Under the pieces are notes generated by a model, which saw only the letters and a list, made by a program, of their open reading frames with translations, searched no databases and was not told the DNA's origin. A stretch of 64,000 nt of DNA from Capitulum mitella. Taxonomy: Eukaryota > Arthropoda > Thecostraca > Pollicipedomorpha > Pollicipedidae. The stretch is taken from positions 1,116,001 through 1,180,000 of the forward strand of contig CP099841.1 of the NCBI GenBank assembly GCA_030062745.1, read 5' to 3'. Below, one piece after another: positions 6,390 through 63,324 of this stretch. Every line of letters begins with the position of its first letter. The stretch's first letter is position 1. The translations under genes were made by a program, and so were the position numbers.

Positions 6390-6526
6390 GGATGGGCTCA
6401 GAGGACGAGGAGAGATTAGTCGCCGACCTCTTCTTCGGCTACAACAAGCTGATTCGGCCTGTGGAAAACATGACCAAAACCGTCAATGTTGAATTCGGCC
6501 TCGCGTTCATCCAGCTGATCAGCGTG
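6390..6526 (+). CDS. nAChRbeta1: nAChR beta1 exon 2 (N-terminal helix)
   Basis: The acceptor ctgtttcag ends at 6389 and the donor gtgaga starts at 6527. The exon has 2 nt completing a split codon and then 45 codons, beginning GSEDEERLVADLFFGYN and ending LAFIQLISV. This is the conserved first helix and beta1 strand of beta1 subunits. NMT is a potential N-glycosylation site. The ATG at 6392 is probably internal: no signal peptide follows it, and the exon opens in phase 1, so a signal-peptide exon should lie upstream. A 49-bp minisatellite ends about 100 bp before the acceptor. Confidence 0.93.
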
Positions 6527-10598: not shown

Positions 10599-10632
<34 letters not shown>

Positions 10633-18215: not shown

Positions 18216-18294
<79 letters not shown>

Positions 18295-36546: not shown

Positions 36547-37023
36547 TCATGGCACGATAATGTGCGGCGCCGACAGCAGCACGGCCACCGTCGCCACGAT
36601 CGTAAACAGCGTGAACACGATCAAGCACATGCGGTCCACCACCATGGCTGCGAACTTCCAGTCACTGGTGACGTCGGCCTCCTCGTCGTCGCGGCGCATC
36701 TTGTCGGTGATAGTCCGCAGCTCGCGGAGAATGAGCTGCAGCTCACGGCTGCAGCCGGCCAGGCAGCCGTGCACGGCCAGGTCGTCGGCCGACTGGCCCG
36801 GCAGCCGAATGTAGCTGGCCGAGTTGGCCTGCAGCGCGCCGGCGCCGCCGCGAAAGTCGTCGTCCATGTCCAGCACGTTGGCCAGCAGCGACTTGGAGGA
36901 GCGCTCCTTGAGCTCCAGCTCCTTCATCTTGTTGTTCATCATGATGTTTTTGCGGGTGATCTTCTCGCCGGGCCGCGACATGCGCAGCAGCCACGGCATC
37001 CACTGGAGGAAGACGCTCCGCAC
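36547..37023 (-). CDS. nAChRalpha6: nAChR alpha6 exon 10 (cytoplasmic loop, TM4, stop)
   Basis: 158 codons plus TGA, acceptor catcggcag, phase 0. It opens [20 protein letters not shown], then [27 protein letters not shown] and DMDDDFRG. A diverged stretch follows, then [18 protein letters not shown] (amphipathic MA helix, about residues 93-125), [11 protein letters not shown] and TM4 at about 131-151, ending SAPHIIVP. This is the typical alpha6/alpha7 C terminus. It is strongly GC-rich at third positions. The frame is open throughout, which argues against an old pseudogene. Confidence 0.95.
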   Translation of the reverse strand: MRSVFLQWMPWLLRMSRPGEKITRKNIMMNNKMKELELKERSSKSLLANVLDMDDDFRGGAGALQANSASYIRLPGQSADDLAVHGCLAGCSRELQLILRELRTITDKMRRDDEEADVTSDWKFAAMVVDRMCLIVFTLFTIVATVAVLLSAPHIIVP

Positions 37024-40000
37024 CTGCCGATGACGCCAGAGGAATTAACGGGCACAGCCTCACACTGCCGCTGACGGGATGCGTTCTTATCAAATTTATC
37101 ACTAGAGCAAAGTACCGGAGTATTGCGTTATGACGCTGCAGGGCGCAGAAACGGACCGGGGCTCATTCAGTTGAACTGGGGCAATTACTCGCGTCATTTC
37201 TCTTGGGGAGAGGCACTCATCCATCAGCGCAATTCAGCTGCCTCCTTTCCTGGTGGGACTAGGGCAGATTCTACAGTCAGCACAGATCACTAGTTCCTCA
37301 GCACTGGCAGAACAAATGTCTCTTCATCAACAAACATTATATTTCTGAACATTGGTAATAGGGAAAGGGCGACCTTTTTAAATCAACACTAGACATGATT
37401 TGGCCCGGCGTTCTGTGGAAACCTCAAACGACAGGCTAAGTTAGCAAAATGAAGAAAAGTAGCGGCTAAGCAGGACACATTTCAAAAGGTCCCCTGTTCG
37501 CCAGACTACCATGTCGCATTCAACATCACCGAAACTTGCTCTCAGATAAAGGCGACGAACATCCTACGAAGGCAGACGACAACAGGCGTGTGTTTACACT
37601 AAGTTTCAGTTCTGCGACGAGTTCAGTACACAAAGAGTGAGATATCGCACTGCTTCTCTACGGAGTTCTTCGCCTCTCTGATCAGAGGATGACTGCTTCG
37701 CAACTTTGGCAGATACTTAATCAAGAAAGTGGACAACAGCTTAGGACGCAGGGAGACCTGGCCTGGCCGTGGCGTCAGGCCGTGGTGCCAGGCCAGGCTA
37801 CGGCCAGACCGTGGTGTCCGCCACATGCCGCGGACACGGAACCTCTCGCCATCAGCCAGCGATGGTCGCCGGTAGGATAGTCCGGTCCGGTCCTGTTCGA
37901 TAGGTCCATCCACTTACCCAGGGCGCCATCTCGTGTGTCTCTCCGGACCGGTGGTGGTAATTGAGGATCAGCACCGGTGCTGACCACCGACGACGCCACC
38001 ATGAACATTATGCAGTTAAAGTATGTTCCTACAAACATAGATGGCGTTAAAAGCAGCCCGCCGCAGGCGAGGCCATCGTCTGTGTCGGCACTGGGCCGGC
38101 GCTCACGAGGTTCTGACGGTGTCGCCAGAGGGCTCTGCCAGCAGTGGCAGGCCGTCATTCTGCGACTTCTGATCAAGGACCCGCTGCCCAGGCAGTGAGG
38201 AGACCCGTTCTCGTGAGCGGCGACAAAGGACCTTCACGTTTCGGATGCCCGTCGCGATCAGGAGAGTTTACCATCTTACTGAATCGAACGTGATTCATCT
38301 TGGTATTTTCTTGGAAAGAATGCAAACGTTTGGAGTCCTATTAGGCTTCAACTCTGTCTTGAAGAAAAAGTTTAGAGAAAAGGTGACGTCAACTGTCCAA
38401 ACTTTGGAAGTTTTACTGCGGTCATTTCAAATGTATGACAGTCGAAACCAGAATAAGATAGAGTGGTTCAAAACAGCCACGAAAACCAAAAGATATGGCC
38501 ATTGAAAATGTTGATTTAAGTAAATGGTGTTATAACTTACTGAAAACATCCGCAATAGCTAATTTCGCCGGCATTTCTCACTGCCAGCGTACTTTGTTAG
38601 CAACTTGTAAGTCCGCAACGAAAATACCCAGATGCCTCACGAGAATACGTCCCAGGATGGTGGCAATGACGATTTACTCGAATGTCCGCGTTATTCACCA
38701 CGCACTTTGAGTGAACTTATTCAGCAAACATTTTGTCATCTCACACACCGAGCACCCAGCTAGCATTAAGGCCCGCTGATCGGCATTCGTCTGCCAGCAT
38801 GTTGTGCCCAGGCGGGACAGAATATGCATGCATCAGACCATTCGATGATGAGAGCCATGCGCCTCAGGGCGGTGGCAGAGCGAGAGCGCGGCCGACCGTG
38901 GAGCCGGGGGCGGGCCGAACGGGGGCCGCAGCGCCGGCGACGTCACCTCAGACAGCCGCCGCCCGCCGCCCGCCGGCCCGCCACAGGTCGGAATTTAGAG
39001 CACCGGTTTAATCCATGCATATTTATGGTCTGATTAGCTTATTTATCGGCAGTTATTTAGTCCCTTTCTGGCGTCGGCGGGCTCGTGGCTGTAGTCGTGT
39101 GACGGTTTTATCGATGAGGCCCGACAGTGGCCTGATTGAGCCGGAGCCGCCGCCCGCCAACCGCGAAAGGGACTGAACGAAGGCACGCGCGAACTGGCGA
39201 CTCGCTTAGCCAACGGTCATCAACCAAGAGAACCTTGCTTTGAAGATCGGAGGGGACACCACAAGTCCGCAGGGCGCGCCGCGTGGGCGGCACCCTCGAC
39301 AGGAGGCGACCAGAGCGCCAGCGACGGGAGGGCCCGGCCGTCGTCAAACCAAGGCCCGCTGGAGGGCCCTTGGCCAAGGAGACGCTTGGCAAGACGTGGC
39401 TGCTTGGAGTCGCAGAGGGGACGGGCCGGACACGGCCGGCTTATGGGGGCCAAAAACCACGCCAAATTTACGCGCCGAATTATCGCGCGTCCTTCCCCAG
39501 AGTCCGACCAAAGTTTTGAGCCTCCTCGTCGATGCTCTAGAGAGTCACCGAGCGACTGACTCTGAGGACAGGACACGGGTCTGTCTGATTAGCTTTTAGT
39601 TAATCAGATACATTGCCTGTTCTTGTGAACGATGCAGCGCATGGTCAACAAGCATGCGTGTGTCCATGCCAAGCCATGCACAGTAAACATTCACTAACCG
39701 CGTGTGTATTGAGGATGTTTGTGAAGACAAGCAGAACCTTTGTGTGCGTTTGAATCGGTTATGAATGATATTAAACATTATTTAGATGCGGAATGGGTTG
39801 CATTGAAAGGTAGGAATCATTGTTGAATGCACTGCGGAACGGACTTCAGCTAGGGCAAAAAGGATATCGTCACATTGTCTATTATAATTGTAATTATAGA
39901 CATATATAGACATATAGACATAAAATAGACATTATAGACATATAGCCATTATAGTAGCTTTACCATCTTAACAAAAATTGGCTTAATGACCCACATATTT

Positions 40001-43000: not shown

Positions 43001-43426
43001 GCCATACTCAGAAGCCGTAAGCGGCGTTTTTCGTCGACACTTCTGAAAGGTCCTTAGTGCACGAAATACCTCTGGCATGAAAATTAAAGGAAAGGTTATA
43101 CTCCTAAATAAACAGAAGCAATCAGGCGTGGAAGCAGCCCTCCCCTATGTCAGGAAATACTTTTTAGCACTGAGTAACACGGCTGCGGTGTGGCCGGGTA
43201 CATCTGTGGGTGCGGGGCTGTAGCGGCTGCGGCGGGGCCGGGTACATGTGTGGGTGCGGGGCTGGAGGGGCTGCGGTGTGGCCGGGTACATCTGTGGGTG
43301 CGGGGCTGGAGGGGCTGCGGTGTGGCCGGGTACATGTGTGGGTGCGGGGCTGGAGCGGCTGCGGTGTGGCCGGGTACATGTGTGGGTGCGGGGCTGGAGG
43401 GGCTGCGGGGTGGGGGGGTATATTGT

Positions 43427-43460
<34 letters not shown>

Positions 43461-46400
43461 GGGGGGGGGGGGGGGGGGGGCCGGGTCGTTGTGGGTGCGG
43501 GGCTGGAGGGGCTGCGGTGTGGCCGGGTACGTTTGTGGGTGCGGGACTGGAGGGGTTGCGGTGTGGCCGGGTACGTGGGTGCGGGACTGGAGGGGCTGCG
43601 CTTGCTGGCGCCTGATCCTGCTGTCTTTACGCTGTCCAATTCGATTTCACTTAAACACCTCCGCGACACGCCAACCGCCTACGTTTCCCTCCGCCACGCT
43701 GCAGCCGTGCTTCTCCATGAATGATGTAGAATGCAGTACATGCGCCATCATAGGCGCCTCGGGGCTAAAACAGGGACTGCCCAAATGCCAGCAGGGCTGG
43801 AAGTGTCTTTAAAGGACTTATTTTACTAAAGTTTACCTTACTAAGGGCAGTGGCGTAGCGAAGGGGAGGCCGAAGGGGTCATGACCCCTTGGAGGCCAGG
43901 CGGGGCCTCCTGGCGGCCGAGCGGGCCCCCCTGGGGCCGAAGGCTCCAGTTCTTTGGATAGCGTGAGGCGCCCGCAGGACATCTCTCACTGTCCGGAACA
44001 GACAATTAAAGCAAAATAAGAGCATTTTAAGCCATAAAAAACAGTTTACGAACTTCAAGGAAACGTACTCCGAATATACAAGAAGTCTTTGTGTGCTATG
44101 AAAAGAGGTCCGTGGTCTGAATGAGTGTTTAGGGGTCCCTGCTAGCTTGTAGGGGAGTTCACTGCTTGTCTGGGGAGGGCCCCCTGCCGGCCCATAAAGG
44201 GTCCTGTTAGCCTCTGAAGGTACCTCGTTTCGGCCTGAACGCTATGAAGAAGGCCCCTGCCCCTTCCTCCAGAGATCGACAGGGGCCCTTTACAGGCGGA
44301 TAGTGTGCCCTCACAGACAGGCAGTGACCTCCTTGGCCAACAGGGGCCCCTAAACTATCATTAAGGGGCCCTTGCTTTCCTGTTAAGATGTCCCTGCAGA
44401 CCTGTAACAGGCGCCCGCCAGGTCGGTAGGAACGTCTTTACAGGCGAACGTGGGTTCCCTTTACAAACCTAAAGCAATTTTCACCACATGGGACCCCACT
44501 GATTCCAAGGGCCGGGCGCGGGTCCAAAGGGGGAGCAATTGGGGCGATCGCCTCCTCCTTCCCTGGGGCCTGAGAAGGGGCCCCTGTCAGATTTAAAAGG
44601 GGCCCCGAAGGGGCCCCGTATGAACTTCACGGGGTCTCTAAAAGAACGTGAGGGGCTCTTAATGCAAGTCAGGGAGGCCTGCTGGAGGGTTAGATGACCT
44701 CTGAGACGCACAGAGGGCCCCTGAGGTTCCCAAAGGGCCCCTAAGACCACAATAGGGCCCCGACACGGCAGAGTGTCCCTGAGACCCCAGATACCGCCAT
44801 AGGGCCCCTGAGACGGCCAAGATGAGGACTGAGTCCCTAGGGCACCCCTGTGAGTGAAAAGCTGAAGGTTCTTGATGTAGTCAGAGGGCCTCCGGGAGGC
44901 TTAATGAGACCCTGACACGGTAAGATGGCCCCTAAGATGGAAAGAAGGGCCCTTGAAACTCTTCAAGGGCTCCTGGGACCACAAGGGACCCCAACACGGC
45001 AAAGGGTCCATAAGGCCGCTGAAATTGCCAGAGAGGTACCTGAGACGGAAAGAACTTAAGAGGGTGCCTAGCACGGCACAAGGAGACCCTGGCCAGCCAG
45101 AGGGGCCCCTTGAACGGGGATTCGTCGGTGACCTTCTCAACCTCGAGAGGAGTCACAAATGGGCTATAATGGCCTTTCTGAAACCTTGAGAGATTCTTGA
45201 TGCTGTCAGGGGCCTCCGCAAGGCAAAGACGATAATGAGGGCCTCTGAGACGGTATTTGGATCTTATGGGGGCGCTGGAAGGCCAGAGGGTCCCCAAGTA
45301 TAATAAACGGACTCCTGGCACGGGCAAGGTCCCCCTGAGACTGCCAGTGAGGCTCCTAAAGCGCCAACAAAACGGCTAGAGTTGTTCAGGCTAGGAGGGG
45401 CCCTGAAAGACTGCCAGATATATCTCATGTAACAGAGGAAGACCCCTGATACAGCCATGGGGACCACCGGAGACGTTCAGCGGGCCTATGACACTGCACA
45501 GGGTCCCTGAAATTGCCAAAAGGTCTTTTGTAACTGCCAGAGGGCCCCCGAGACGGCCAAAATGTCTCCCAGAGACGATAAGAGGGGTACCCAGAACCAC
45601 AGGGGGTCCACTTAGACTGCTAGAGAGACCTACGAGACTGCTAACTAGAAGTCTCTAGCAACAGGGGCCCCTGGCAACGACCAGAGGGATTTCTGAAACT
45701 ACTAGACCTGGAGACGTCCAGACTGTTCCTGAAACGGCCAAAGGACCAAGGGGATTGCCAGAGGCGTCTCTGTCACAGCAGAGAGAGACTGACACAGGGC
45801 CTTTTTTAGTGCCTGAGGGACTCTTTAAACGGCAAAAACGCCCCAGGAACAGCAGGAGGGAATCCGAGATGGCTCAAGCGTCCGTGAAACTGCCAGATGG
45901 GTCCCTGAGACTGTCCGAGGTGCCCCTGAAACTGCCAAAGGAGCGCCTGAGACGTCCCGCGGGATACGTGAAACTGTAAAAGGAGCCTGAGACCACTAGA
46001 GGGTCCTGGAACGACAGACGGCTAGAGACCACCAAAAGTGCCCCTGTGACTGCAAGAGGGAACCTAAACTAAGCTTACAAAAAAATCCCCCAAAGCTACG
46101 GGATGGAGGGGGGTCCAGGAGACGGCCCTCCTGGACCAGATACAGACACGACCTTTGAAATAGAGGGAGGGACGGAACCGTTGAAAGTCTCGCCGTTTTT
46201 GTCATATTTTGGTCACTTTGTTCGGGAACAAAACGTAGAATTCCCCCAAATAAGGTGGCGCGTTTGAATTTTTGTCATTTCATATCGTAAAAAAACAAAA
46301 TTACGTCATTTTTTCTCATCTGAAGGGCAAAAACATAGGGTCCCCGCGCGGACCATTCGCCTCCACCTTTCCCCTTCCCCACCTTGGCGAAATCCTGGAT

Positions 46401-49400
46401 CCGCCCTTGGCAAGGGCTCCCATGGGTTACGGGGGCCCCTTGATCCGATTTGCCCCCCGCCCTGGGCGGAAACCTGAATCCGTCCCTGGCCAAGAGATAG
46501 AGTAGTAAAGCACTGCAGCCAAATCAGTTGATGTCAGAAGCCAAAATTACAAGCGTGGATAATAAGGGTAGAAAGAGTACCAAGTCAAACACGCAAATTT
46601 CAATTCTGACACGTGGCAACTTAATCCGGACCATGACTTGGTCATAGTCATTGGATCTTACTATTCTGTGGTTCTAACGACATTAGCAATAAGCTCATAA
46701 CCATTGCCGAACTTGACACCGAACATATTCCAATACTGCTCACTTTTACGATGTTCATTTGGAGACTGAAATGTTTTTCATCAAAGAAAATAGTTTGTAT
46801 GTTTTAGCAGGCACATATGACTAATCAATAACGGCAAGATTTTGGTCTTTCGGTGCGCTTGTCGTCTGTGGGTGGTAAACGGGAAAAATATAAAACCCTG
46901 GCTCAACAAGTTAAAGTGGTCCTCAAAAGCATGCCATCCATTTTAAGCTATACACATCAAATGTAAAATCCAGGGCGCGGCAAGGATTTTCTTAAGGGAA
47001 GGGGCAAGAGCTCAGAGTGAATTGAAATCATACGAAAACTGCCTGCTGGGAAGACGACGTGTAATGACTTTCACAAAAATGCGGGCCTAAGGGGTGCCGG
47101 GCTCCCCTTTGGCTGCTCTAGTGGCAAAGTTCCTCACAACGCGGTAACACGTTACATTTAAGGATAACGTTCCTCATCAGCGGGGCATTTGTCCTGTTTT
47201 GACCGAGCTGCACCAACCAGAGGAGTGTGCGGGAAGCGTTGTCAAGACACAGGCCAGCGGTAAGGGGCGGCGGTGAGGTGTTAGCGTCTCTTTAGCGGGC
47301 AAGTGTTAAAGTAGGCGGTTTCTGCTGTCGGCTGTTGGTCAGTGGCGGCCGATAGTCCAGCATGCCATTCCCGGTCTAGTGGTGGGAAAGTGGCCCGTCC
47401 ACCCGCACGCATTCGGCCCTGGTTCGCCGTCGCCGGCCGCCGTCTAGCTTCGTCCACTGCTGCTGCTCTATGGCGGCACGGCCAGGCCCGGCAGGCTGGC
47501 GCCAGGAGGCCCCGGGGCAGGTGCCCGGCGGTCAGCGCCGCGGCCGCAGCGGGGGCCAGTCGTGGAGCCAGTCAGTGCACCCAATGCAAGGCGGCGAGCG
47601 CGTTAGGCCAGCCGTCCGGACCGCCGACCGGAACAGCTGATCGCCGCAGAGCGATAGAGAGAGACAGAGGCATGCGGGGTGACGATCTGCTGACCTATCA
47701 GGGGTACCGCGTCTGACGTCTCCGGCAAAGCATCGCTTATCATTAGAGAAAACACAGTCAGCGAGAGGAGGATGGTTACGCCTGGAAAACAAGGCCAGGT
47801 CAGGCGCAGTGCCAGCTGCTCGGTGACGGGTGACTGAAGCGTGGCAACCCAACGTGAACAACCATGCGCCCGACACGGAGCAGACACTATCGGGAAATCG
47901 GCTCACAGTTCGACAGATGTATAGATATGAAACGGAGAGGTGGGCGTGTAAGAAAAAGGAAAGAGTAAGAGAAATAGTGAAAGAAAGAAGGATAGAGAGG
48001 TGTGGAGAGAGAGGGGGAGGGAGAGAGCAAGGAAAAGGGCAAAACAGAGAGAGAGAGAGAGAAAGGGGAGAGACAAAGAGAAAGAGAGAAAATACACTGC
48101 GCAGAAAAGAGAGAGTGGACGAGACAGCGGAGTAGGGACGCCAGGGTATCGACAAAAGCGGCGCGGGTATAAACACTGCTCTGTACACGCCTATTATGGA
48201 CATCTACCGCCAGCTGGTCTCTTGGACACAGACGTCTCGCGTGCTCAGCTGACGACCCTGCGGCGTTAGCTGCGCACATGAGGCAAGCGCTGCGCTGACG
48301 GTCACCGGCCGGCCGGTCCAGTGTTCTCTACCTAACACAGGCATTGCATCTGACACTTGCGGGAGAGTCTCAGCGACTAGATTGTGGAACACGGTCAGGG
48401 AAAGAAGAATCGTAACCCCTGAAATCAAACAAATGATAATGAAGTTGGCGTAAGTGTCGGCTGTTTAGCTCGGCTGGTCGTGCCTCCTCTTGCGTTGCAA
48501 TTTGGAACGAACATTCTGTGGTGTCCCCTCGGGTCCAGCCGGACTAAAAGCAGCCTCAGCCGACTACACAGCGGTGTTTACCTATGAGTGGCACTGCGTC
48601 GGATGTAGTAGGCATACTCTCGGCCACCATGTTTAGAAAGACAGTGAGTGATAGCAAAACTGTGACACCTAAAACAGGAATGGAAACAGTGAGCCGTGGA
48701 TTTTCTCGCACCTGAAGGGTTGTTGGAAAAAACTATCTGGAAGGACTTCAGATGCTAGACTCAAGCACAATTTCAGAAGACGGGCAATGATTCTGAAAAG
48801 GAGAGTCGAGGATGATGTAGGAATTTATGTAAAAATATGAGACAGGGATCAGTGGCGCATGCGTCTTAGAAAGAAAACACAAAACACAGCATGCATGATG
48901 CCCTGTAATCCTAATATAGAACAATGTGTAAGACAGGCATGAATTTATGTTTGCTTTATCTGTCTGTTCGCTGGTTTTCAGCAGAACCACTGCTTCCTGA
49001 ATTTACGCGGTCGGTCGTTACACGACATCGAATCGGGCAATGTATTTGGTGGGAGCGTCAAACCCTCTGGGAGTCCAAGTGCGATTTTTACTTGGGGTTA
49101 CCTAGTAGAGGCACAGCCTCTGAGGTCTCTGGCATATTCGCAGCGACTTGGTTGAGAAATACGGTCAGAGATAGTAGAACAGTGACCCCTGGCGATAGAG
49201 GACATGGTTAACTACCCGACTGGACGCTGGCCTCTCGCCCAAACAGAGCACGTGGTCCTAGCCGAAGCTGCCGCGGATGAAAGAATCACACAGATACGGA
49301 GCAAATAACGGGGAAGAAGCAGAGCAAGGAAAAGAGAGAATGAGACAGAGGGTGGAAATAGAGCTTGAGAGAAAGAGGTCCAGAGACAGAAAGATGTACA

Positions 49401-52400
49401 CAGATAAGATATGAGAATAGGCGGACAGAAAACCAAACGCCAGCATCCAAACTTAGGCAACACAGTCGTATTGAGGTGGCTTGTCAAGGGCCACAGAGGA
49501 ACCAAAGGAGGAAAGAACAAGAGACGAAGCAGCATGAGGGCAGAGCATGCCGAGGCGCAGGACAGGTAAACGCATTGGAACCGATTAACGTGGTCAGGGG
49601 TGACTGAGCCAACGGTTTCCAACCTGCAACAAGTGAGCCGTTTTCAATGTCAGTCATGAACAACATATGACAATTGATCACACACAGCGTGAAATCACTC
49701 TGGACAGATCCACGAATTGACTGGACTGAGTTGACTAGACACAGCCGACAGTTATCATGTTATCATGTCATCATGCTATCATGTTGTCATGTCATATTAA
49801 TTATCATGCGCGACTCAGGCGCTTGTGCAAGCCAAAAAAGAGGGTATCGAGAGGGGAATTTATGAATGGGTCAAAATCTATAGATCCGTTTCCATCTGAA
49901 AGACAAAAAAAGCAGCACCACCCATGACGACGGTCATTTACTACATGAGCAACATACATGTAACTGCACAATGAAAGCGAGTCCACAGTGCTCTTGCTTG
50001 AGATGAGGCCGAAATTGCACAGCACGATTCTCACTGATCACCTATGCGCTCCTGGTATTAACAAAGGTAAAATTAAGACATAGGTCTCAGAAAAAGGACA
50101 TTTTACTGAAACACTTGTGTGCCACTTCATAAATTGACTCTGTTCATCAGGATGACACTGCAGATGCACGAGAACATGAAAATGGGACAAATTTTGTGTG
50201 TACTTTAAGCCTAAAATTTCGTTTCAACACGATTTTACCAAGCAAAAGAAGACGTCTTCACAACAATGCAAATTTCCAGTCAATGGTCACAAAAGAGCCT
50301 CCAGGACACTTATGTTCCAAACAACAGGAAACGAGGCAAAACGCGTTTTTGACAAATCCCACTCGTAATCGACCAACCTGCGTACCTGAACATTCAGAAA
50401 AATGAAACCAAACAGAACTACAAGATAATGCTTGTAACACTTAAAAATGCTGACATACAAGATCCGAAATGAACTGTCTCGACGTCTGAGGTAATCCTTA
50501 ATCGCCGTTACCGCCTCAGGGATTGGGGGCTGCGTTTGGCCGCGCGCGCTCGGCGCCGGTCGGCAGGGGAGCGTGGCCGCCGGGCCCGCCTGCCTACCTA
50601 GCGTCAGCTTCTCCCCGGAGTCCGGCGGCAGCGTAAAGGCCAGCAGCACCATGGTGGATATCAGGATGCCAGGCAGGACCAGGTTATGAAGGTAGTAGAG
50701 CGTGCGCCGCCGGATCCGCACTTTGTACGTTATGTCGAAGTAAAGCTCGGGACAACAGGCGTACGATATTTCATTGCGCTTTCCTGGAATACCTGGAAAA
50801 TTGTGCACAGGGCGTCATACAGGAGCACACACTGGGCCGGGCCGTAGGGAGGTGCCAGAAGGGACTCAAGCGCCATGCCGCTTCGGGTTACCGATCGAAC
50901 AGGGAACAGGCGGGGACTCTACATCAAACAGGGAACAGGCGGGGTCCTGTCCGTGCCGACTCCAGAGAAAGACGCCGGAAAATGACAACAAACCTGAGCT
51001 CGGTTCGATAACCATGCAAAATCAGGCGCGCTGAGACTACGGCCAACTGCACGGCTCTGCCGGTGCCGGCGCACGGTTACACAGCGGTCGGGGTACTCCG
51101 TCCGGGGCTGGAGGGGGAGCTCTGACCGTGGGCGCCCGATTCGGCAGCGTCCACTCTGGCACCTCCCCAGGACGGCGGCGAGCCGCGGAGCCGGGCAGCG
51201 CGCAGCTCGAGAACGATGGTTTACCTAAGCTCAGCTTTTCGCCGCTGTCCGGCGGGAGCGTGAACCCCAGCACGGCCATGGACGCAATCAGCACGCACGG
51301 CACTATCAGGTTGGAGAAATAGTACAGGGTCCTTCTTCTGATCAAGATCTTATACGTTACATCGATATATGTTTGCGGACAACAGGCGTACGTTATTTCG
51401 TTTCGCACCCCGGGCACACCTAAAACAGAGAGAAAGAAGGAGATAGAGAGAAGAAACATACAACACGTATTTAGATGACAGTTTTACGCACAGTTTACGC
51501 TTGCCATTACTATGTCATGTTCTCATCTCTTGGTCAAAACGTGTTCAAACCATTTGCAAAACTGAGTAAAACATATCTTGTTACTCTGCTTAAATTTAGC
51601 GAGAATTGAATTATTTTGCATTATTTCTATTTATAAGCATTGTTCAGCAGCAGCAAATATGTCTTGACCAAAGTTCATAGAGCAATGGTGGTCGTATGAC
51701 ACTTCAGAACAAAAAAAGCAACGGAATACATGTTTTCTCCGGATGTGTAATTTATATGTTAATATTTTATATATATAACACATAACATATAACATGTTTT
51801 ATGACCGACTTTATGCCTCACAAAACACAAAATGACACAGACCAAGAAGCTAGAACATCAATCATCACTCAAGCATTTGTGAACATTGCAAATATCAATG
51901 AACCATTGCTCGATGAACATTTCAGATGAATGCATGACAGACACACATGTACGATCAATTAGGAACTTTCCTTTTTAGGTTAAGACTGAATTATGATGGA
52001 AGGAGAAAGACAACGACAGTGATCGGATTCGGTCAACGCTGCAGGCTGTTGACATCTGACTGTCACCCAAGTTCCAGCGCCTGCTCATTTATTCGACATT
52101 AACGCTCTGTGAATGTCAGGGCAATTGGCGACTGACTTGAGCCTTGCTGGTCTCCCACATAACCTGTCCAACTGGTAACAGGCCATCGTTGCCTGCGCCA
52201 TACAGCGTTTTCATTTTCATTTCATTCATTTCTTAGCGTTTTCGTCAAAAAGTAATCCTTCGTTTCGTGATATTTGACCGGTGTTCACCGGGCAAGTGTT
52301 CTCGGTGGTCGGTGTGTGGTGCACGCCGCCTGCGAGTGTCCAGCCTGCAGCGGCGCCGTCCGTGTCGACACCAGAGCAAAGCCAGACCGACCTCCGCCGG

Positions 52401-55400
52401 TCGCACACGTACCCAACAGAGTCCACTCGCCGTTCGGCAGAAAGCTGCTGGCGTCTCCCTCCTCGGCCGGCAGGATCAGGTCCAGCTGCGACCAGAGGGA
52501 CGGCGTCAGAGACAGCTGCGGCAGATAGACAGAATCAGAGACAGCTGCGACCAGAGGAACACAGCCAGAGACAGCTGCGGCAGTGAGGTAGAACCAGAGA
52601 CATCTGAAGCAGGGAGACAGAATCAGAGCCAACTACGGCAGATAGATGGAAGGTCTCCGCCGTAACGAGAACAGATTCAGGGACCATTTCAGTGACGGGG
52701 CTGAACAGGTCCAGCCAGGATCAGCTCCAGCAGTAGGAAAAAATATGATCCAGATGGCAGGTCAAATGACAGCAGCAGATTAGGATCAACCCAAACTGAA
52801 ACAGAAGGACAGGATCGGTCCAACTGCAGCGGTGAGGCAAGATCAGGCTCGAAAACGGGCGACCAATCCCCTCCATCTGCTGCCGCCCGGAAACCAGCTT
52901 CTTTTACGACCGACGAACGGCGATCCATTAGTCTAAAATGACGTTTTATGGGCCCACGTTGTCCACTGCGACCTTGGGTCGGCTTTGGACTTCATTGAAA
53001 ATCGAGACCGAAGTTAGGCGAATGGGAGAAGTCGGCTGGTGACATTATTGTGAAGCTGGATGACTGCGTGACAGCCTCTGGAGATCTGAAAAAAATATCT
53101 GTGAAACTGCCATCAACCTGAAAAGATGAAACCTTTGCTTTTATCCCTGCACTGCATATTAACACGCACACTGGAAGGGGATCTTTTTGTGCCCCCACCT
53201 GTTTCCCTTGAAAATCTCGAGAACGGATCGGAGCTGGTTGCTGCTACTTTGTGACGTTTATTGCAATTAAATAACTCGTCGATTGACGCAGAAAAAAAAT
53301 CGGCCGGAAATTTTTCAAGTTTCAAGCATTTGAAGTCAAGCAAACAGAACGAAAATAACGGTTGTAGCTGACAAATGGGAACTTTGTGAAAGGACTAGCG
53401 TTCTACCTAAGACTGCTGCTTGAACACAATCAGGCTACGTCATTTGGGCATAAGTGATGGATGCACCAAGACCAAAGCCAGGGTCAATAAGGGTCAAGGT
53501 AACCAAAGGTCAGGTCAACCACCTGGTGACCTGACCCAAATTTGCTTTCCAACATTTCGTTTTGTATCAAATATACACTCAGACACCCTAACAAAAACAC
53601 GCCTGCGCACACTGATGCGCTTACATCTACCAGGGCCAGTCAAGGTCAAGGTCAAATATCTTGTGGTCTGGTCCAGATTTGCTTTGCGACATGTCGATTT
53701 GTAAGAAATATGAATTCAAAAACCCTAATAAAAACACGTGTGCGCACATGGATAAGCTTATATATACCAGGGTGAGCGCAAGTCAAGTTCATCAAAGGTC
53801 AAGGGTAATTATTTTGTGACCTGGTCCAGATTTGCAATATGTCGATTTGTATGAAATATGCATTCAAAACCCCTACTAAAGACACGTCTGGCACATTGAT
53901 GTTCATATATATATATATGCATATATGCAGATACATACATACATAAATATAAATGCTGGAAGCGATCAAATGTACCGATGGCATTCGATTCTATCTGCGC
54001 TGAAAACACGCCAAAAGACACGTGTAGCGCCCTGATTTACATTCAAGCTTTCCCTCATTGCTCGAAATCTGATCTGCAAAAGATAAAAATGACTGCATAA
54101 ATCAATGACCTGACATGACCTCGGCCCAAAATCCTCAGCCAAGACGTCAAATGAACGGAAGTTGTCGTATGCCACGTTTGAGCGCTCAAGCAAACACCCT
54201 TTCCATTTCGTTCGAAAAGTTGTACGGAATGGCTTGTACGGACCGAGAAAGTGTCCAAAGTTGACCTTTACGACCCTATTTGACCTTGAAGGTATCGACC
54301 TAGGGTCATGAAAACTGCACACAATATAAATCGTTATGCTCTATCCTGTCCACAAAATTTGATGCCTCTAACTCTTTCAATTTCCGAGATCGGAAGGGGG
54401 TCCTTTTGGACCCCCTTCCAGTGCGCGCTAGCGCGAAACCCCCTTCCACTGCGCGGGTTAAGGACAAACTTCATTGGCTCAAACTTAGCTTCATGCGAGT
54501 GCTGTTTCGAAATTACGATATTTCAGGCATTTTAGGCTAAAGTATGCCTCGGAAAGGCCAAACTGGATAATCTGTGAAATCAGTACATTGACAGCAGGAA
54601 TGTGGCTGCTTGTAAACAGCACACTTTTTATGCAAGCCTTTGGAGCCGAGTTCCATATGCAATCTTCAGACTTGGCCAGAGGACAGGCGCCATTTCTTAC
54701 AGTGCATTTGACACACCATTTAAGGAAAGACAGGGCCCCGACCAGGCCCTATGCGGCCGGCTCCCGTCTCCTTTCGCCGCTCATCGAGAGTTCCGTCGCA
54801 GTTTCGCCGGCTGTGTCGTCCCCAGTGCTGCCCTCCAGCCCACAGCGCGACAGCAGGGCGACGCCGCCGCAGCCGGCTGACCGCGACAGCGGCCGGTCGG
54901 CCCCGTTTTACAGGGCTTTTTACGAGCGGTGCCGGTCACGGTCGGTCCGGCCGGCCGCCGCCCGAGAAGCCTCATAACGGTGGCGGAGGCGGCGGCCGGT
55001 CGGCTGGCCGCCGCGCCGGCCAGAACGAATTTATCAGCCGCTCCGAGAGACGGTCGGCGTTATGAGCGCCGGCGCCGGCGGCCGCGGACAGGGCCGCGAA
55101 GAGCGGCGGCTGGTGGGCCGCTCAGGCCCAGAGCAGAACAGCTCCGGCTCAGAGCAGGGTCGCTCCGATCAGAACAGCGGCCCTCCGATCAGAACAGCAC
55201 CCCTCCGGCTCAGAACAGAACTACTCCAGCCCAGAGCAGGGCCGCTCCGGCTCAGAACAGAGCCACTCAAGCTCAGGATGGCGTGGAGAGCTGCCGAGCC
55301 CGGGGAGACGTGTAGGCAGAACAGCTGGAGCAGGACGGTGGTGAAAACTGAGTGTCTCATCGGAGCGATACTGGCTGAACGATCGGAGCGGGACGCTAGA

Positions 55401-57991
55401 GATACCGATAAATTCATGAGACGGATACTGAGGCCAAACAACTGAGACATGGCCATTAGACGCACCGACGGCCCCGGGATCAAACGGCAGAGACAGGACG
55501 ATGAGATATCGAAGACGAATAGTGGGACGCACTGACGTGCTTCAGGAAAGAAGTTTCAGACAAAACAATGAGACAGAATGACGAGCAAACTTTCCGGACA
55601 GGGCCGCTTACAGGCATGACAGCTAAGGCAGAACGCTGCAGGCAGAAGGTTTTCAGGCGATATAACTTGCTGGTCTTTTTCAAGCGAAACAACTGATGCA
55701 AAAAGTTTGGTCTGGGTTGGAAACTTTGAAACTTGGCAGATAGTATTTGCTCGTGCCTCTAACTCACTATTTCCAGCACGACCCAACTTTCGGGGCAACC
55801 TAAGTTCCGATAAAGGTTAACTTACAATGTAAGTCAGATTTGTGTTGAGTTACTGCGCGCTCTTCAGGAACAGGAAAAACAGTAAAAAATGGACGACAAT
55901 TAGTGTTGCAAGGCTGCATCATTTTTCTCGATGAGATTTCCGTCAGTTTAGGCAACACTTCAGTGCCGCACAGATCTTCAGCTTTGCAGAGAACTTCTGA
56001 GAGGCTCAATCTAGGTAAAAGCATAATGGTTACGATCCAAATATTGTTCCGTTTCAATGCTATGCAATTGCAGGTGCAAGAAAGCACATGTTTTGCATGG
56101 AAACAAGAAGCCGCACCAATTAGCTCACATGCAATGCTTGCGAACATATGGGAATTAAATCGTCGTCAAAAATTTGGTTCATTTATCTTGGAGCTACACC
56201 AATTTTGAATGAAACTAATTAAGAATACGAGAAACGAACTAAATCAAGCACGGCCAGTTCCAGACCGTGTGGTCAGCTGTCACACAGTTAGCTGACACAG
56301 CGTGGTCAGCTTCTGCGTAGATTATTCAGCTGCTACACGGCGTGGGCAGCTGCCATTGCTGCGTCGTGCTCAGCTGCCATGTAACGTGGTCAGCCGCCAC
56401 ACAGTACCGTCAGCTGCTACACAGCGTGGCCAGTTGCGACACAACACGGCCATACAGGACATGATATTTCCCTCTAAGCGGTGGCTCACGCTATCAGTGG
56501 TCGACCTTACCTGCCAGCCATCGTACGTCCATGATCCGAACTTCATGTTGCACTCCTGGTCGTCGAAGGGAAACCATGTGATGTCTATCTTGCACGTGGA
56601 TTTGAAAATACCCGGAGGCACGTACAGACAGCTGCCGTTGTTTTTCAGCACAACATTCGTCGGATACGTGCCGTCAAATTTCTCATCCGCGCTGTGGAAA
56701 CAAGATGGTTAATTGCTCTGGTGTTGAAAGCGTGAAACTTCCACCGACTCGAAGTATTCCTTCCGCACGTAGCCCAAGACAAGGGTGTTACATGGAGCCA
56801 GATCAGATCCACTGAGCTTGGAGTAGAAGTAGCTTTAGACATACTGGCGTTTCTCAACGGACGTTGGATTTCCACACTAATGTTTGTCATCAAAACCGCA
56901 AGAAAGTCATAAGAATATCTGCGAACGGACTATGGACAAAATGCGGTAATAAGATACTACGGCTATGGTGAATATCGTCGATGGGACTCGTTGTATCGAT
57001 AACCAGTACAATACCAGTGAGGGTAGTCGAAATACGTCCAATATTGAAAACAGCGTTTAACGTTATGTTTCGTGGCAAACCCTGGTCACGCTTTTTGAAC
57101 TCACCTGTTGTACAAAAGAACGTCCGGTTTCCATATTCGATGCGGAGGAATTCGGAGGTCTTGAACATTTCCAAATTCGGATTTATTCCATCGTAAGTTC
57201 ACATCATTCCACTCCTGGAGTCGAAAGTGAGTGATAGTTGAGCGATGAGTGGTGATAATTGCACATTTGCTATCGGTAGATTTCGAACATACAACTGACT
57301 TCGCAGCATTTTGTCAACACATGCACCACAATGCATGTGGTCCAAACGTATACATACTTTACAGTTAACAAACGTTAGAAACGTGCATGGGCGCATAATG
57401 AACTCCGGAATGCCATCGGCTTCTTGATCTCGCGTTTATTATGATGAGAGGACGAATTTCAAATTATCACATACCCTTGAAAATGATAACATGATAACCT
57501 CACGCACGGATGTTGTAACACATTTGGTTTTCGTCACTTCACACGTCTTCAACAACTTCAAACAACGTCTGCAGATCACGACTAGAGCCATGCATCTGGA
57601 TACAGGTAAAAATCATGGCATGCAGAAGCTACAAGCAACCCTTTTTGTTACGATTTCCATCGACGAGATGAACAGCAGTCCCAGATGTCACATGCTCATT
57701 ACTGTCTGGCACGAATGTGTATGTTCACATCGCTCATTTGCGCAGCCACCTTCGCAGCACTGTGCTGTAGAAGACTGCTTTAGAAGTGCCTCCATAGCTC
57801 GGCGTTTCAACACCCTCGGAGTGACACTAACTTCGTCATTGGGAGGCCAGCGCCATCAGAAACGTACAGCCCATCAAGATATTTGGGATCGACTGAAAAA
57901 CGTTGCAAGAATGCGCAAATGTGAGACGTTTGACAGGATTTGCTATATTGAGAGCGGGTCCAGAATGCTCTCTCTCTCTCCCCCTCCCCTC

Positions 57992-61000: not shown

Positions 61001-63324
61001 ATGGCCATCTATTGGCATGTTATCAGGTGACCCGCGGACCGAATATTGAGCGCAGCAGTGACTCGAAACCATTTTTCCTGTCGAGGGACGGAAGACCAAG
61101 GTTCTCTGCACCTTGGTCATGGACTTCCCATCACGGTCGGACCACTTTTGTGCTGCTCCTCCGACAGGACGGTCGTCTTTTGAGCGCAGCCCCAGCCAAA
61201 TGGATAATGCCCTTCCCGCCTGTTCATTCCCAAAACAGGACAGTTCTCATCCGACTGCCAAGCCCCCGAACGACAGGGTCCTCCTGACTGCTCTTCTAGC
61301 AGGACGGCCTTGTTCTGATGGTCACTTTGGCAGGGCGGTCATGCTCTGACGGCTCCTGTCTGAGGAAAACAATATTCCTACTGCTGAGCCAACTAGACTG
61401 TACTGATCGCTCCCTGGTAAAAAAGACATTTTTTCAGAAAGTCTTTGTCTCATTGCACTAGAGTCCGGACGCTCATTAATTTTATTTATAAATTCACCGC
61501 GAGTGTGTTAAAGTGGGCCAAAGACCATGACAAGCCGAGATTGCTGCCGGACGCTGATCCCCGACCCATTGTTTTCGAATAAGGGATAATTTTGCCCAGA
61601 CGCCGAGCCAACTGACCCTGAAGGTATTTTTATAGTGTTGTGCGATTTAATGACACGGCCGCCACGTGACCGTCTGATCCTTCCACTCTGGAACTCGAGC
61701 CCAACGTCCGTCACGCACAGGACTCTGATGTCTGGCTCCTTATCTATCAAGCCAAGGCGGCGGCAATCGTTGCTCTTTAGAGACATTACCACCGTTGCTG
61801 GTCCTCGGGCTGGTCTGTCACGTCCACGGCCGCACAATTATTGTCCCTCCAGCAGATCACGCTTGTTACATGATCATTCCTGTTGCAGTTTAAACTGTCA
61901 ACGGTCCATTGGGTCACGGTCGCACAATAACTGCGCCACCACCACAGAACTGGTGTACAGTAGTTGCTTCACCAGTACGTAATGTGACTTTAAATTTTAA
62001 GTTTACGTAATGCGACTTTACGTAGTGTGTACAATGACTGCTCCCCCAGTAGATCATGAACATGTAATAGTTGTGCCTGCGGTAAACCATGGGCGCACAC
62101 TAGCTACTGATTTCATATGACTCTACAGCGGACACTTCGGTAGCACACTGTTTCACTGACTGCTTTGTTTCTCATATCTTTGGACGTCTTTGATAATTTT
62201 ATGGCAGGCTCACGCCGAAATATGGAATGCCATGCGGGGAGTTCTTATGTCTTCAACCTGCGTAGTGTCAATTATCCGCGTTAAAAAAAAAAAAAAAACG
62301 ATACCCAAGAGATGTCTTTTTTTTGGTGATAAACGTTTCTCTCTTCTGACCGGTGAATTGTTTGCACCGTTGTATTGATACAGCACATGAGATATGCTAA
62401 AAAAAAATAAAAAAAACAGGCAATGTAACCGTACCCTCAGTGTTTTCGGACAGCTCACTGCAGGATAAACACTCGAGTATTCAAGCGGTGCGTGCTCCTT
62501 TGAAAGTCGCGAACTGCTTGGGAGCATTCTAAGCTTTCCAGGGAAGGGCCGAGCTTCAGACGTCCTCTTTCCGAGGTGCTGTACTGATTCCACACATCAG
62601 TGATAGCTAACTGCGGTTAACTGTGGTAAAACATCCCGATACGGACTTCAGCGTGGCACTCGCGCTGTAAAGTGAAGAAAAAAACTTGTGCTATGCGGCT
62701 AAGGGTTTCAGTTAACGAACTCAGTTGACCAACGACATGAACTGTGTGTCTCGTAAGCCGACACTGGTGACAACAGGCCTCCCAATCGACTTCTAACGGA
62801 CTCGTGCCACTCCAGCAGGGTCTGGCCGGTGTCCCCCCCCCCCCGTGAGCAGCAGCGACCAGAGGCAGGCGGAGGTCGCCGCCGCCGCACACGTCCCCAA
62901 CGCCTTCCATGCAGCATGCAGACGAGGTAGACGTGCAGGTCTACGAGGCAGACCACATTAGAAGGCCGCCGCCGACCGCCCGAGCCCATTAGCCGTGTAA
63001 CCGTCAGACGCCAGCCTCAAACACTGCGCCAGCTGAGATCTGACAGTTCGAACAGCTCACTGGCTGTACCAACTGTCAGACAACTCACTGGCTGTACCAG
63101 CTGGGGTCAGACAGCTCACTGGCTGCACCAGCTGCGGTCAGACAACTGACTGGCTGCAACAACTGCAGCCAGACAGCTGACTGGTTGCAACAACTGCTGT
63201 CCAACAGACGGCAGAGTACGAGCCGCCGGGCTCAGATGGGGCAGCGCCTTGTCTATTTAAATGCAGGCCAGCAACTTACCAAATTTAACCAAATATTCGT
63301 AATTAGCAGCTGGTTCTTCTCATC
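36547..63324 (-). CDS. nAChRalpha6: nicotinic acetylcholine receptor subunit alpha6 with duplicated alternative exons (gene span)
   Basis: This is an alpha-type nAChR subunit of the arthropod alpha5/6/7 (vertebrate alpha7-like) group, most like insect alpha6. In transcript order the exons are 63280-63324, 57105-57214, 56511-56691, 52413-52485, then one of 51225-51419 or 50598-50792, then one of 49102-49188, 48582-48668, 48332-48418 or 47695-47781, then 37918-38028 and 36547-37023. One isoform gives about 425 visible residues. The signal peptide and first helix lie beyond the window. [20 protein letters not shown] followed by [17 protein letters not shown] is the alpha6 signature. Insect alpha6 has alternative exons 3 and 8; here exon 8 is fourfold, exon 7 is also duplicated, and only one exon 3 was found. 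The TM3 exon has a one-base frameshift, so the gene may be an assembly error, a polymorphism or an early pseudogene. Confidence 0.93.
37024..37917 (-). other. alpha6 intron 9
   Basis: An 894-bp intron between the TM3 exon and the last exon. Nothing else was recognised. Confidence 0.75.
37918..38028 (-). CDS. nAChRalpha6: nAChR alpha6 exon 9 (TM3) with one-base frameshift
   Basis: The acceptor is tatgtttgtag and the donor is gtaagt. The first two bases complete the Gly that opens [18 protein letters not shown], the start of TM3. This Gly corresponds to the residue (G275) changed to Glu in spinosyn-resistant thrips. In the next frame the exon continues [19 protein letters not shown] up to the donor. 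The exon is 111 nt where 110 are needed. One extra base lies in the palindrome gcaccggtgc at 37971-37980. As written, translation leaves frame inside TM3, and exon 10 would be read in the wrong frame without MA helix or TM4. The flanking splice sites and codons are otherwise perfect. Confidence 0.88.
40890..41170 (+). repeat. 32-33 bp minisatellite
   Basis: Units of tgtcgtccgtcccctccact type start at 40891, 40948, 40981, 41012, 41045, 41078, 41109 and 41141. Confidence 0.8.
43190..43610 (+). repeat. 44-bp minisatellite interrupted by poly-G
   Basis: GTGGGTGCGGGG starts at 43206, 43250, 43294, 43338 and 43382 (exact 44-bp period), with further units after the G tract at about 43490-43600. The proline- and glycine-rich frames on both strands are by-products of this array. 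Confidence 0.93.
43427..43480 (+). repeat. poly-G tract
   Basis: A run of 32 G, then TT, then 20 G. The length may be unreliable in any sequencing technology. Confidence 0.9.
44100..46130 (+). repeat. decayed satellite of about 30-bp units
   Basis: Roughly 2 kb made of strongly diverged units of the type cctgagacggccagagggcccc. The period is about 30 bp, mutation is heavy, and the units are hard to phase. Frames across it are repeat artefacts. Confidence 0.7.
47695..47781 (-). CDS. nAChRalpha6: nAChR alpha6 exon 8, copy 4 (TM2, divergent)
   Basis: 87 bp, phase 1 at both ends, acceptor cttgttttccag, donor gtcagc (weaker than the gta donors of its sisters). It encodes [20 protein letters not shown] and ETSDAVPLI. 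The outer half of TM2 is the most diverged of the four: Leu 16' replaces Asn and Asp 20' replaces Glu. It lies 9.7 kb before the TM3 exon in transcript order. Confidence 0.93.
47930..48120 (-). promoter_or_regulatory. long polypyrimidine tract upstream of exon 8 copy 4
   Basis: On the transcribed (minus) strand this is about 190 nt of mostly C and U, located 150-340 nt before the acceptor of TM2 copy 4. Such tracts bind PTB-type splicing repressors. That role here is inference from position and composition. Confidence 0.4.
48332..48418 (-). CDS. nAChRalpha6: nAChR alpha6 exon 8, copy 3 (TM2)
   Basis: 87 bp, phase 1 at both ends, acceptor tttgatttcag, donor gtagag. It encodes [20 protein letters not shown] and QVSDAMPVL. 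The ETLPQVSDA segment resembles one of the three insect alpha6 exon 8 variants. His at 15' is unusual. Only 163 bp of intron separates it from copy 2. Confidence 0.94.
48582..48668 (-). CDS. nAChRalpha6: nAChR alpha6 exon 8, copy 2 (TM2)
   Basis: 87 bp, phase 1 at both ends, acceptor cctgttttag, donor gtaaac. It encodes [20 protein letters not shown] and TTSDAVPLI, essentially the canonical insect alpha6 TM2 (Glu 20', Asn 16'). By similarity it is the likely ancestral or major form. Confidence 0.95.
49102..49188 (-). CDS. nAChRalpha6: nAChR alpha6 exon 8, copy 1 (TM2)
   Basis: 87 bp, phase 1 at both ends, acceptor tctatcgccag (poor pyrimidine tract), donor gtaacc. It encodes [20 protein letters not shown] and ETSEAVPLL. 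The gate Leu 9' and Val 13' are kept. Position 17' is Gln and position 20' is Ala, where the other copies have Glu or Asp. It is first in transcript order. Confidence 0.93.
49189..50597 (-). other. alpha6 intron between exon 7 copy 2 and the first TM2 cassette
   Basis: 1.4 kb. It contains the tract above and a 9-bp tatcatgtt-type repeat at 49753-49808. No further cassette was recognised. Confidence 0.7.
49290..49410 (-). promoter_or_regulatory. polypyrimidine tract upstream of exon 8 copy 1
   Basis: A C/U-rich stretch on the transcribed strand, about 100-220 nt before the acceptor of TM2 copy 1, whose own pyrimidine tract is weak. A role in choosing this cassette is inferred only. Confidence 0.35.
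50598..50792 (-). CDS. nAChRalpha6: nAChR alpha6 exon 7, copy 2 (loop C and TM1)
   Basis: 195 bp, phase 1 at both ends, acceptor caattttccag, donor gtaggc. It encodes [31 protein letters not shown] and TM1, then [11 protein letters not shown]. Loop C keeps the Cys pair and its tyrosines, so it should bind agonist. It differs from copy 1 in residues around the Cys pair (Q/T against E/L), in TM1 (Cys against Gly after NLxxP) and at pore position 2' (Thr against Ser). No stop codon or broken splice site is seen. Including both copies would keep the frame but duplicate TM1, so exclusive use is inferred. Confidence 0.94.
50793..51224 (-). other. intron between the two exon 7 copies
   Basis: 432 bp with normal donor and acceptor. 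It is long enough that steric interference alone would not prevent joining the two copies. Confidence 0.75.
51225..51419 (-). CDS. nAChRalpha6: nAChR alpha6 exon 7, copy 1 (loop C and TM1)
   Basis: 195 bp, phase 1 at both ends, acceptor ctgttttag, donor gtaaac. It encodes [17 protein letters not shown] (loop C with the vicinal Cys pair and flanking tyrosines), [14 protein letters not shown] and TM1, then [11 protein letters not shown]. The residue at TM2 position 2' is Ser. It keeps 44 of 65 residues of the second copy at 50598-50792. Both lie in the right order between exon 6 and the TM2 cassettes, so they should be alternatives. Confidence 0.94.
51420..52412 (-). other. alpha6 intron 6
   Basis: 993 bp, AT-rich, with nothing else recognised. 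Confidence 0.75.
52413..52485 (-). CDS. nAChRalpha6: nAChR alpha6 exon 6 (pre-loop C)
   Basis: This 73-bp exon has acceptor ctctggtcgcag and donor gtacgt. It encodes [18 protein letters not shown], then GEWTLL and the first base of Gly. Insect alpha6/7 subunits have a D-L-SDF-NGEW-L-G pattern at this position. It ends in phase 1, matching the start of either exon 7 copy. Near-copies of its acceptor and first bases recur just upstream in the intron (see findings). Confidence 0.9.
52486..52850 (-). repeat. diverged repeats carrying copies of the exon 6 acceptor
   Basis: Units with gacagctgcgaccagagg / cagagacagctgcggcag recur at 52509-52590. More diverged units at 52700-52835 include, on the minus strand, gcag followed by TTGGACCGATCCTG, close to the true exon start gcag CTGGACCTGATCCTG. 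Confidence 0.6.
53480..53900 (+). repeat. three copies of a 138-153 bp satellite
   Basis: Each copy has AGGTCA motifs, then tggtccagatttgc, tgtcgatttgtatgaaatat and ccctaataaaaacacgtctg. The copies are anchored at about 53540, 53678 and 53831. Confidence 0.85.
55130..55285 (+). repeat. 21-bp minisatellite
   Basis: About seven units of the type cagagcagggccgctccggct. Confidence 0.88.
56262..56450 (+). repeat. decayed minisatellite beside alpha6 exon 5
   Basis: Units of 22-24 bp of cacagcgtggtcagctgcc type. The array ends about 60 bp from the exon 5 donor. Confidence 0.75.
56511..56691 (-). CDS. nAChRalpha6: nAChR alpha6 exon 5 (loop B/E, Cys-loop)
   Basis: This 181-bp exon has acceptor ttgtttccacag and donor gtaagg. 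It encodes [45 protein letters not shown] and [12 protein letters not shown]. The Cys-loop cysteines are at exon residues 33 and 47. NGS is a potential glycosylation site. WTYDG is the loop B core. It ends in phase 0. Confidence 0.95.
56692..57104 (-). other. alpha6 intron 4
   Basis: 413 bp, nothing else recognised. Confidence 0.8.
57105..57214 (-). CDS. nAChRalpha6: nAChR alpha6 exon 4 (loop A)
   Basis: This is a 110-bp exon with acceptor ttcgactccag and donor gtgagt. It encodes [15 protein letters not shown], then [17 protein letters not shown], with the loop A W-K-P-D motif. It ends in phase 2 with AG, and the next exon supplies C to complete Ser (LYNSADE). Length and phase are identical to exon 4 of beta1, as expected for paralogous subunits. 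Confidence 0.94.
57968..58040 (+). repeat. (CT)n microsatellite
   Basis: CT dinucleotides with short C interruptions. Confidence 0.95.
58561..58594 (+). repeat. (CCCTGC)n array
   Basis: More than five perfect hexamer copies. Confidence 0.95.
63030..63200 (+). repeat. about 30-bp minisatellite near alpha6 exon 3
   Basis: Four to five units of the type gtcagacagctcactggctg with caccagctg, diverging towards the right end. Confidence 0.85.
63280..63324 (-). CDS. nAChRalpha6: nAChR alpha6 exon 3 (loop D)
   Basis: This 45-bp exon encodes [15 protein letters not shown], with acceptor ccgtag and donor gtaagt, phase 0 at both ends. Length, position and sequence match exon 3 of insect alpha6, where two alternative versions exist. 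I found only this one copy between here and exon 4. A minisatellite lies about 80 bp downstream in the intron. Confidence 0.92.

Follow-up and report, generated by a model that had tools for sequence, protein, structure and literature searches.

Can a single arthropod receptor gene vary its agonist-binding site and its pore separately? This question is raised by a 64,000-nucleotide stretch of the barnacle Capitulum mitella (contig CP099841.1 of assembly GCA_030062745.1, forward-strand positions 1,116,001 to 1,180,000; hereafter the window, whose first letter is position 1), in which a gene for a nicotinic acetylcholine receptor (nAChR) subunit extends on the minus strand from a point past 64000 to 36547. 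We consider it probable that this is an alpha7-type gene in which two clusters of alternative exons lie side by side, and that one of two exons 7 and one of four exons 8 are selected from them. Specifically, exon 6 would be spliced to 7a or 7b, which encode loop C, the first transmembrane segment (TM1) and the 2' pore residue, and the selected exon 7 would then be joined to one of 8a to 8d, which encode most of TM2 and the TM2-TM3 linker, and then to exon 9. In this way, one gene would give up to eight subunits differing near the agonist site, in TM1 and in the outer pore (15', 16', 17' and 20'), presumably with one cassette of each cluster used per transcript. The six cassettes are as follows:

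51225..51419, minus strand: cassette 7a, loop C, TM1 and the start of TM2, 2' Ser, 195 nt
50598..50792, minus strand: cassette 7b, loop C, TM1 and the start of TM2, 2' Thr, 195 nt
49102..49188, minus strand: cassette 8a, TM2, 20' Ala, 87 nt
48582..48668, minus strand: cassette 8b, TM2, 20' Glu, 87 nt
48332..48418, minus strand: cassette 8c, TM2, 15' His and 20' Glu, 87 nt
47695..47781, minus strand: cassette 8d, TM2, 16' Leu, 17' Met and 20' Asp, 87 nt

Two Clusters of In-Frame Cassettes

All six cassettes lie between exons 6 and 9, are preceded by AG and followed by GT, and are entered and left in phase 1. A first-pass annotation made from the sequence alone had described them as two consecutive alternative-exon clusters, loop C/TM1 and then TM2, with lengths of 195, 195, 87, 87, 87 and 87 nt; its coordinates were correct to the base, and the arrangement was confirmed on the minus strand. 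Its further claim that any pairing stays in frame, giving eight combinations, also held, as translation of the exon 7 x exon 8 pairings was stop-free from exon 3 through exon 8 in 8/8. Within each cluster the exons are homologous tandem copies that agree in length and phase and have intact splice sites, and the introns measured 432 nt (7a-7b), 1409 nt (7b-8a), 433 nt (8a-8b), 163 nt (8b-8c), 550 nt (8c-8d) and 9666 nt (8d-exon 9). Note that inclusion of two copies, or skipping of a cluster, likewise preserves the reading frame, so that single use would have to come from regulated splicing and not from the frame.

When the whole window was scanned with 8a (BLOSUM62), the four exon-8 copies scored 143, 117, 97 and 96, TM2 of a neighbouring beta-type receptor gene scored 67, and the best unrelated stretch scored 39; because the copies score far above unrelated sequence, they are not chance resemblances. 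DNA identity was 67% between 7a and 7b and 57-69% among the exon-8 copies. In Nei-Gojobori comparisons between copies, the proportion of synonymous differences was 0.58-0.87 (corresponding to synonymous distances from 1.1 to beyond estimation), versus 0.14-0.29 for non-synonymous differences, and BLASTN of intron against intron gave, besides self, short matches only. As judged from this divergence, the cassette copies are old and constrained.

Predicted Functional Differences between the Cassettes

Alignment to human alpha7 showed that exon 7 encodes loop C, TM1 and the part of TM2 that ends at 3', and that exon 8 begins within the split 4' codon. YACCP and GEK were present in both 7a and 7b in this alignment, so that the loop-C Tyr and Cys-Cys are kept in the two alike. 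The Cys-Cys pair of loop C is the mark of an nAChR alpha subunit, and Glu at -1' is the mark of a cation channel. Both Neur_chan_LBD and Neur_chan_memb of Pfam were found in each of the two pairings scanned of the eight (7b-8a and 7a-8d). The choice of exon 7 exchanges Ser (7a) for Thr (7b) at 2' and PCVLIASM (7a) for PGILISTM (7b) in TM1.

Among the exon-8 cassettes, positions 6', 9' and 13' are identical, and the differences lie further out: in 8a, 8b, 8c and 8d, respectively, 15' is Leu, Leu, His and Ser, 16'/17' is NQ, NM, NL and LM, and 20' is Ala, Glu, Glu and Asp. Calcium permeability in vertebrate alpha7 depends on 16'/17' and the -1' Glu. Cassette choice would therefore be expected to alter conductance, calcium permeability and gating; we expect 8a receptors to conduct less, and 8d receptors to be the most alpha7-like in calcium permeability.

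A Probable Alpha7-Type Rather than Alpha6 Gene

Relatives were the best 120 each of 4227, 201 and 563 matches, 275 proteins altogether, and tree rows were hand-picked from these. The first-pass annotation had named the gene alpha6, but exon 7a, TM3 and the tree of constitutive exons favour the alpha7 type. In the exon-7 tree (42 rows), 7a fell into a 12-row clade with insect alpha7-type, malacostracan and Artemia 7a (96/98), and insect alpha6 exon 7 fell outside it; the insect group in the trees we take to be Dalpha7 proper. TM3 was readable in 246/275 relatives and read SVVST in 41/41 with a 7a-type exon and SVVLT in 193 proteins, of which 0/193 had a 7a-type exon; the other ST readers were six barnacle or decapod models carrying the other type of exon 7, and the remainder had MT (five, chelicerates) or FT (one), although these counts are not independent because many of the proteins are isoforms or near relatives. 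The window gene combines SVVST with a 7a-type exon 7 and lacks the SVVLT of alpha6. The constitutive-exon tree of all 33 rows was unresolved. After three rows were dropped (Darwinula, Danaus and the second Nilaparvata row), barnacles, decapods, Artemia and the insect alpha7 type were grouped together (92/92, not starred). The gene is thus probably of alpha7 type rather than alpha6.

Cassettes in Barnacle Relatives

The closest protein relatives among the matches listed were from barnacles. The constitutive exons were 95% identical to those of Pollicipes pollicipes P0002, a model on a 56-Mb record, and the window gene, P0002, Amphibalanus P0005 and a second barnacle paralogue were united in the constitutive tree (100/99). 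Cassette 7a was identical to P0002 across the 64 residues compared, and 7b was 95% identical to P0124; 8a matched at 29/29 in six barnacle models, 8b at 28/29 in eight, and 8d at 29/29 in P0002 only, among the matches listed. The Pollicipes and Amphibalanus isoform models (P0001-P0011, P0047, P0121, P0124 and P0125), which belong to two paralogous genes, thus share 7a, 7b, 8a, 8b and 8d with the window gene, and they differ in that, among the matches listed, the whole set occurs in none. These automatic models pair 7a-8a, 7a-8b, 7a-8d, 7b-8a and 7b-8b, that is, 5/8 pairings over two genes, with the 7b-8a pairing coming from a model that starts inside 7a.

Age and Distribution of the Cassette Set

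Three Timema models (P0013-P0015) contained both exons 7 and four exons 8 in one predicted protein, and a mayfly (Ephemera) model, P0219, contained four exon-8 segments; four such segments were found in 4/275 relatives. Since the Timema and mayfly models string cassettes together, they show gene order and not transcripts. Both exon-7 types were detected by pattern in 19/275 relatives, including Homarus, Armadillidium, Trinorchestia, Anabrus, termites, Schistocerca, Periplaneta, Nilaparvata and Rhodnius, and Polyplax P0123 was recognized by eye as one further carrier. Cassette 8c was identical (29/29) in six insect models and differed by one residue in three decapod models.

The exon-8 tree was built on 29 columns, and most of its forks were unsupported. 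The 8c type grouped with insect alpha7-type copy 3, alpha6 exon 8b, and decapod, copepod and ostracod copies (97/99), and the 8d type with insect copy 4, alpha6 8c, Artemia and one ostracod copy (80/97, not starred); 8a and 8b were placed near FLNM-type copies, without resolution in this tree. The order FLNM type, 8c type, 8d type was the same in barnacle, ostracod P0216, insect alpha7-type and insect alpha6 models. In the 41-row exon-7 set, from which Macrostomum had been removed, barnacle 7b and malacostracan 7b formed a clade (95/87).

These distributions suggest that the arrangement is old and common to crustaceans and insects, not a barnacle oddity, and most of the cassette set would predate the crustacean/insect split. 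The simplest account, as far as such short exons permit, places the origin of the exon-8 triplet before the split of alpha6 and alpha7, and that of 7a and 7b before the divergence of barnacles, malacostracans and insects. The window gene shares both exon-7 types with alpha7-type genes of Timema, mayfly, termites, locust, bugs, lobster, isopod and amphipod (P0012-P0023, P0122, P0211-P0214 and P0219), and the Timema and Ephemera models also resemble it in having four exon-8 segments, with 8c and 8d of matching type. However, insect 7b reads PCVMISSM and barnacle 7b PGILISTM, and the extra FLNM-type exon 8 is in second position in insects but first in barnacle. This copy could therefore be independent, and the fourth exon 8 possibly had more than one origin.

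More broadly, an ancestral crustacean/insect alpha7-type gene may have had a splice code of two stages, loop C/TM1 x TM2, setting agonist response and pore properties independently in one subunit; barnacles, malacostracans and hemimetabolous insects would have kept this code and flies would have lost it. We put this forward tentatively, at somewhat below an even chance; on such a history, loss in flies would explain why alpha7 has been regarded as not alternatively spliced.

Tandem exon-8 segments were also seen outside these groups. Tick, spider and mite models (P0245, P0248 and P0255) had two each, and duplication of the TM2 exon may therefore predate Pancrustacea. In the flatworm Macrostomum lignano, P0220 strings together two exon-7-like and two exon-8-like segments.

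Remaining Gene Structure and Surroundings

Exons from 3 through 9, followed by a fused last coding exon, could be placed with GT/AG sites, and their phases are consistent except at exon 9:

63280..63324, minus strand: exon 3, 3b-like, 45 nt
57105..57214, minus strand: exon 4, 110 nt
56511..56691, minus strand: exon 5, Cys-loop, 181 nt
52413..52485, minus strand: exon 6, ending in phase 1, 73 nt
37918..38028, minus strand: exon 9, TM3, with a one-base frameshift, 111 nt
36547..37023, minus strand: last coding exon, TM3-TM4 loop, TM4 and stop, 477 nt

Exons 1 and 2 were not found within the window and would lie off it, upstream of exon 3. A window scan found no second exon 3, the 3b-like copy being the only one. 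Amphibalanus P0005, the model nearest to the window gene, has a 3a-like exon 3, and a third alternative cluster (exon 3) may therefore lie partly beyond 64000.

The exon 6 acceptor (52485) falls within a short tandem array with a 29-30 bp unit (window 52483-52646), where acceptor-like GCAG/CTG sites (the slash marking the junction) recur 30, 59 and 89 nt upstream; the nearest alternative acceptor would give ten extra in-frame residues. In the long intron between 8d and exon 9, a 44-bp GC-rich tandem array (window 43180-43600) is broken by a 54-base G run at 43427-43480, which suggests a stretch that is hard to sequence. A second nicotinic receptor gene, presumably of beta1 type, lies on the plus strand at about 6398-25150, tail to tail with the alpha7-type gene. 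Rfam at the gathering threshold gave no match in the window.

Alternative Explanations

Several findings count against our interpretation of an alpha7-type gene with a two-by-four splice code. With regard to gene type, an approximately unbiased (AU) test on the constitutive exons disfavoured but did not reject the union of barnacles with alpha6 (p-AU 0.097), and the union of barnacles with insect alpha7 alone gave p-AU 0.066. In AU tests on the 41-row exon-7 set, grouping of barnacle 7a with alpha6 exon 7 was not rejected (p-AU 0.32), nor was a barnacle-only origin of 7a/7b (p-AU 0.139), and a single clade of every 7b copy was neither recovered nor rejected (p-AU 0.53). An alpha6 orthologue in which a fourth exon 8 was added and exon 7 was duplicated in the crustacean line would agree with the first three-way set of barnacle/alpha6, 7a/alpha6 and barnacle-only values, with the 33-row tree, and with the closeness of the TM2 cassettes, as 8b differs from insect alpha6 exon 8a at 2/29 residues and 8c from alpha6 exon 8b at 3/29. 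We nevertheless regard such an origin as unlikely in view of the exon-7a clade, the SVVST in the window's TM3 and the grouping with the alpha7 type once three rows were dropped.

A further alternative concerns the use of the cassettes. They may be real without forming a free code, if one pairing is dominant or the choices at exons 7 and 8 are coupled, and some copies are hardly used. Among the matches listed, 8c is in none of the barnacle models and 8d in one; five barnacle models (P0001, P0006, P0011, P0047 and P0121) join 7a with 7b or 8a with 8b, so that use of the cassettes may not be strictly exclusive; and the relatives' pairings are those of gene models. Furthermore, there was no sign of pairing RNA elements above shuffled sequence, as in a single-genome scan for docking-site/selector pairing the observed score was reached by 21/30, 9/30 and 15/30 shuffles in three settings. 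Unequal usage is on record for insect alpha6, where the accessible text of PMC1919356 gives 8b > 8a > 8c with 8c rare. On the other hand, the complete conservation of 8c to insects is hard to reconcile with disuse, the barnacle models already span five pairings over two genes, and in Tribolium alpha6 all six exon 3 x exon 8 combinations were obtained by reverse transcription PCR, according to the accessible part of PMC2064938. Restricted use of this kind is a real possibility, though we think it less likely than not. The integrity of the copy must also be weighed, since exon 9 is 111 nt long and the flanking phases require 3n+2, so that in the gene as assembled all isoforms shift frame by one base in TM3, through either a sequencing fault or a null allele. 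This fault, together with the G-rich run in the 8d-exon 9 intron as a hint of poor local sequence, would fit a pseudogene or cassettes joined by the assembly. However, every other exon was found open, the six cassettes appear constrained, orthologous proteins are intact, and insect models contain the same cassette types. A Pollicipes model keeps the order 7a-7b-8a and an Amphibalanus model 7a-7b-8a-8b. Mis-joined paralogues, a rival raised by the first-pass annotation itself, are unlikely in view of the recurrence of both order and copies in other species. We thus regard a dead or wrongly assembled copy as highly improbable and set it aside as the main account, given that other species have the same cassettes; a sequencing error in exon 9 seems likelier than a dead gene.

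Significance and Comparison with Known Systems

If the alpha7-type gene is spliced as proposed, its agonist-site/TM1 exon and its pore exon could be swapped separately, and natural variants retained over a very long time could be used to test what each contributes to calcium permeability and gating. Exon 8 of insect alpha6 is suggested to be one remnant of an older and wider system that includes alpha7-type genes, and gene counts may understate receptor diversity in crustaceans and hemimetabolous insects, which is relevant when the risk of nicotinic insecticides to non-target arthropods is assessed.

Our literature search returned reports on exon 4 of alpha4, exons 3 and 8 of alpha6, and exon 7 of Bombyx alpha8. 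The two exons 3 and up to three exons 8 of insect alpha6, also mentioned in the first-pass annotation, are documented in PMC1919356, and the Dalpha6 variants are tabulated likewise in Table 1 of PMC8505678, where alternative splicing of Dalpha7 is given as 'Not Reported'. Dalpha7 has been expressed in Xenopus oocytes together with RIC-3 (PMC3444433). Alpha4 exon 4 and/or alpha6 exons 3 and 8 are the only such cases in the parts covered of PMC2064938, PMC7017565, PMC10906874 and PMC3644170. In the searchable text of a cockroach alpha7 cloning paper (PMC7221154), the terms 'exon', 'splice', 'splicing' and 'isoform' are absent; a decapod transcriptome survey (PMC5096308) catalogues nAChR subunits without naming splice forms in the portion available, and receptor terms are absent from the corresponding portions of a barnacle sensory-receptor paper (PMC6497305) and a splicing-motif paper (PMC3303723). 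No description of an exon-7 cluster in an alpha6- or alpha7-type gene was found in the literature searched, which mostly excluded subscription papers. The earlier suggestion that the arrangement may be undescribed is nevertheless weakened, as the set of two exons 7 and four exons 8 is present in the three Timema models and parts of it are widespread among crustaceans and insects. In barnacles, too, 7a or 7b is already joined to 8a, 8b or 8d in automatic models.

Bombyx alpha8 resembles the window gene in having a duplicated channel-domain exon, but it is another subunit, its exon 7 spans TM2-TM3, and its copies are 86% identical and the product of a recent event (PMC2045683). A close parallel is insect alpha6 (Dalpha6), in which exons 3 and 8 form mutually exclusive clusters and which has tandem copies of a 29-residue TM2 exon of the same types in the same order, barnacle 8b, 8c and 8d corresponding to alpha6 8a, 8b and 8c. 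In Tribolium, a conserved Glu is lost in alpha6 exon 8c, which, it was suggested, may affect conductance (PMC2064938). Unlike insect alpha6, the barnacle gene has four exon-8 copies instead of two or three, an exon-7 cluster in addition, TM3 and exon 7a of alpha7 type, and one exon 3 seen in the window.

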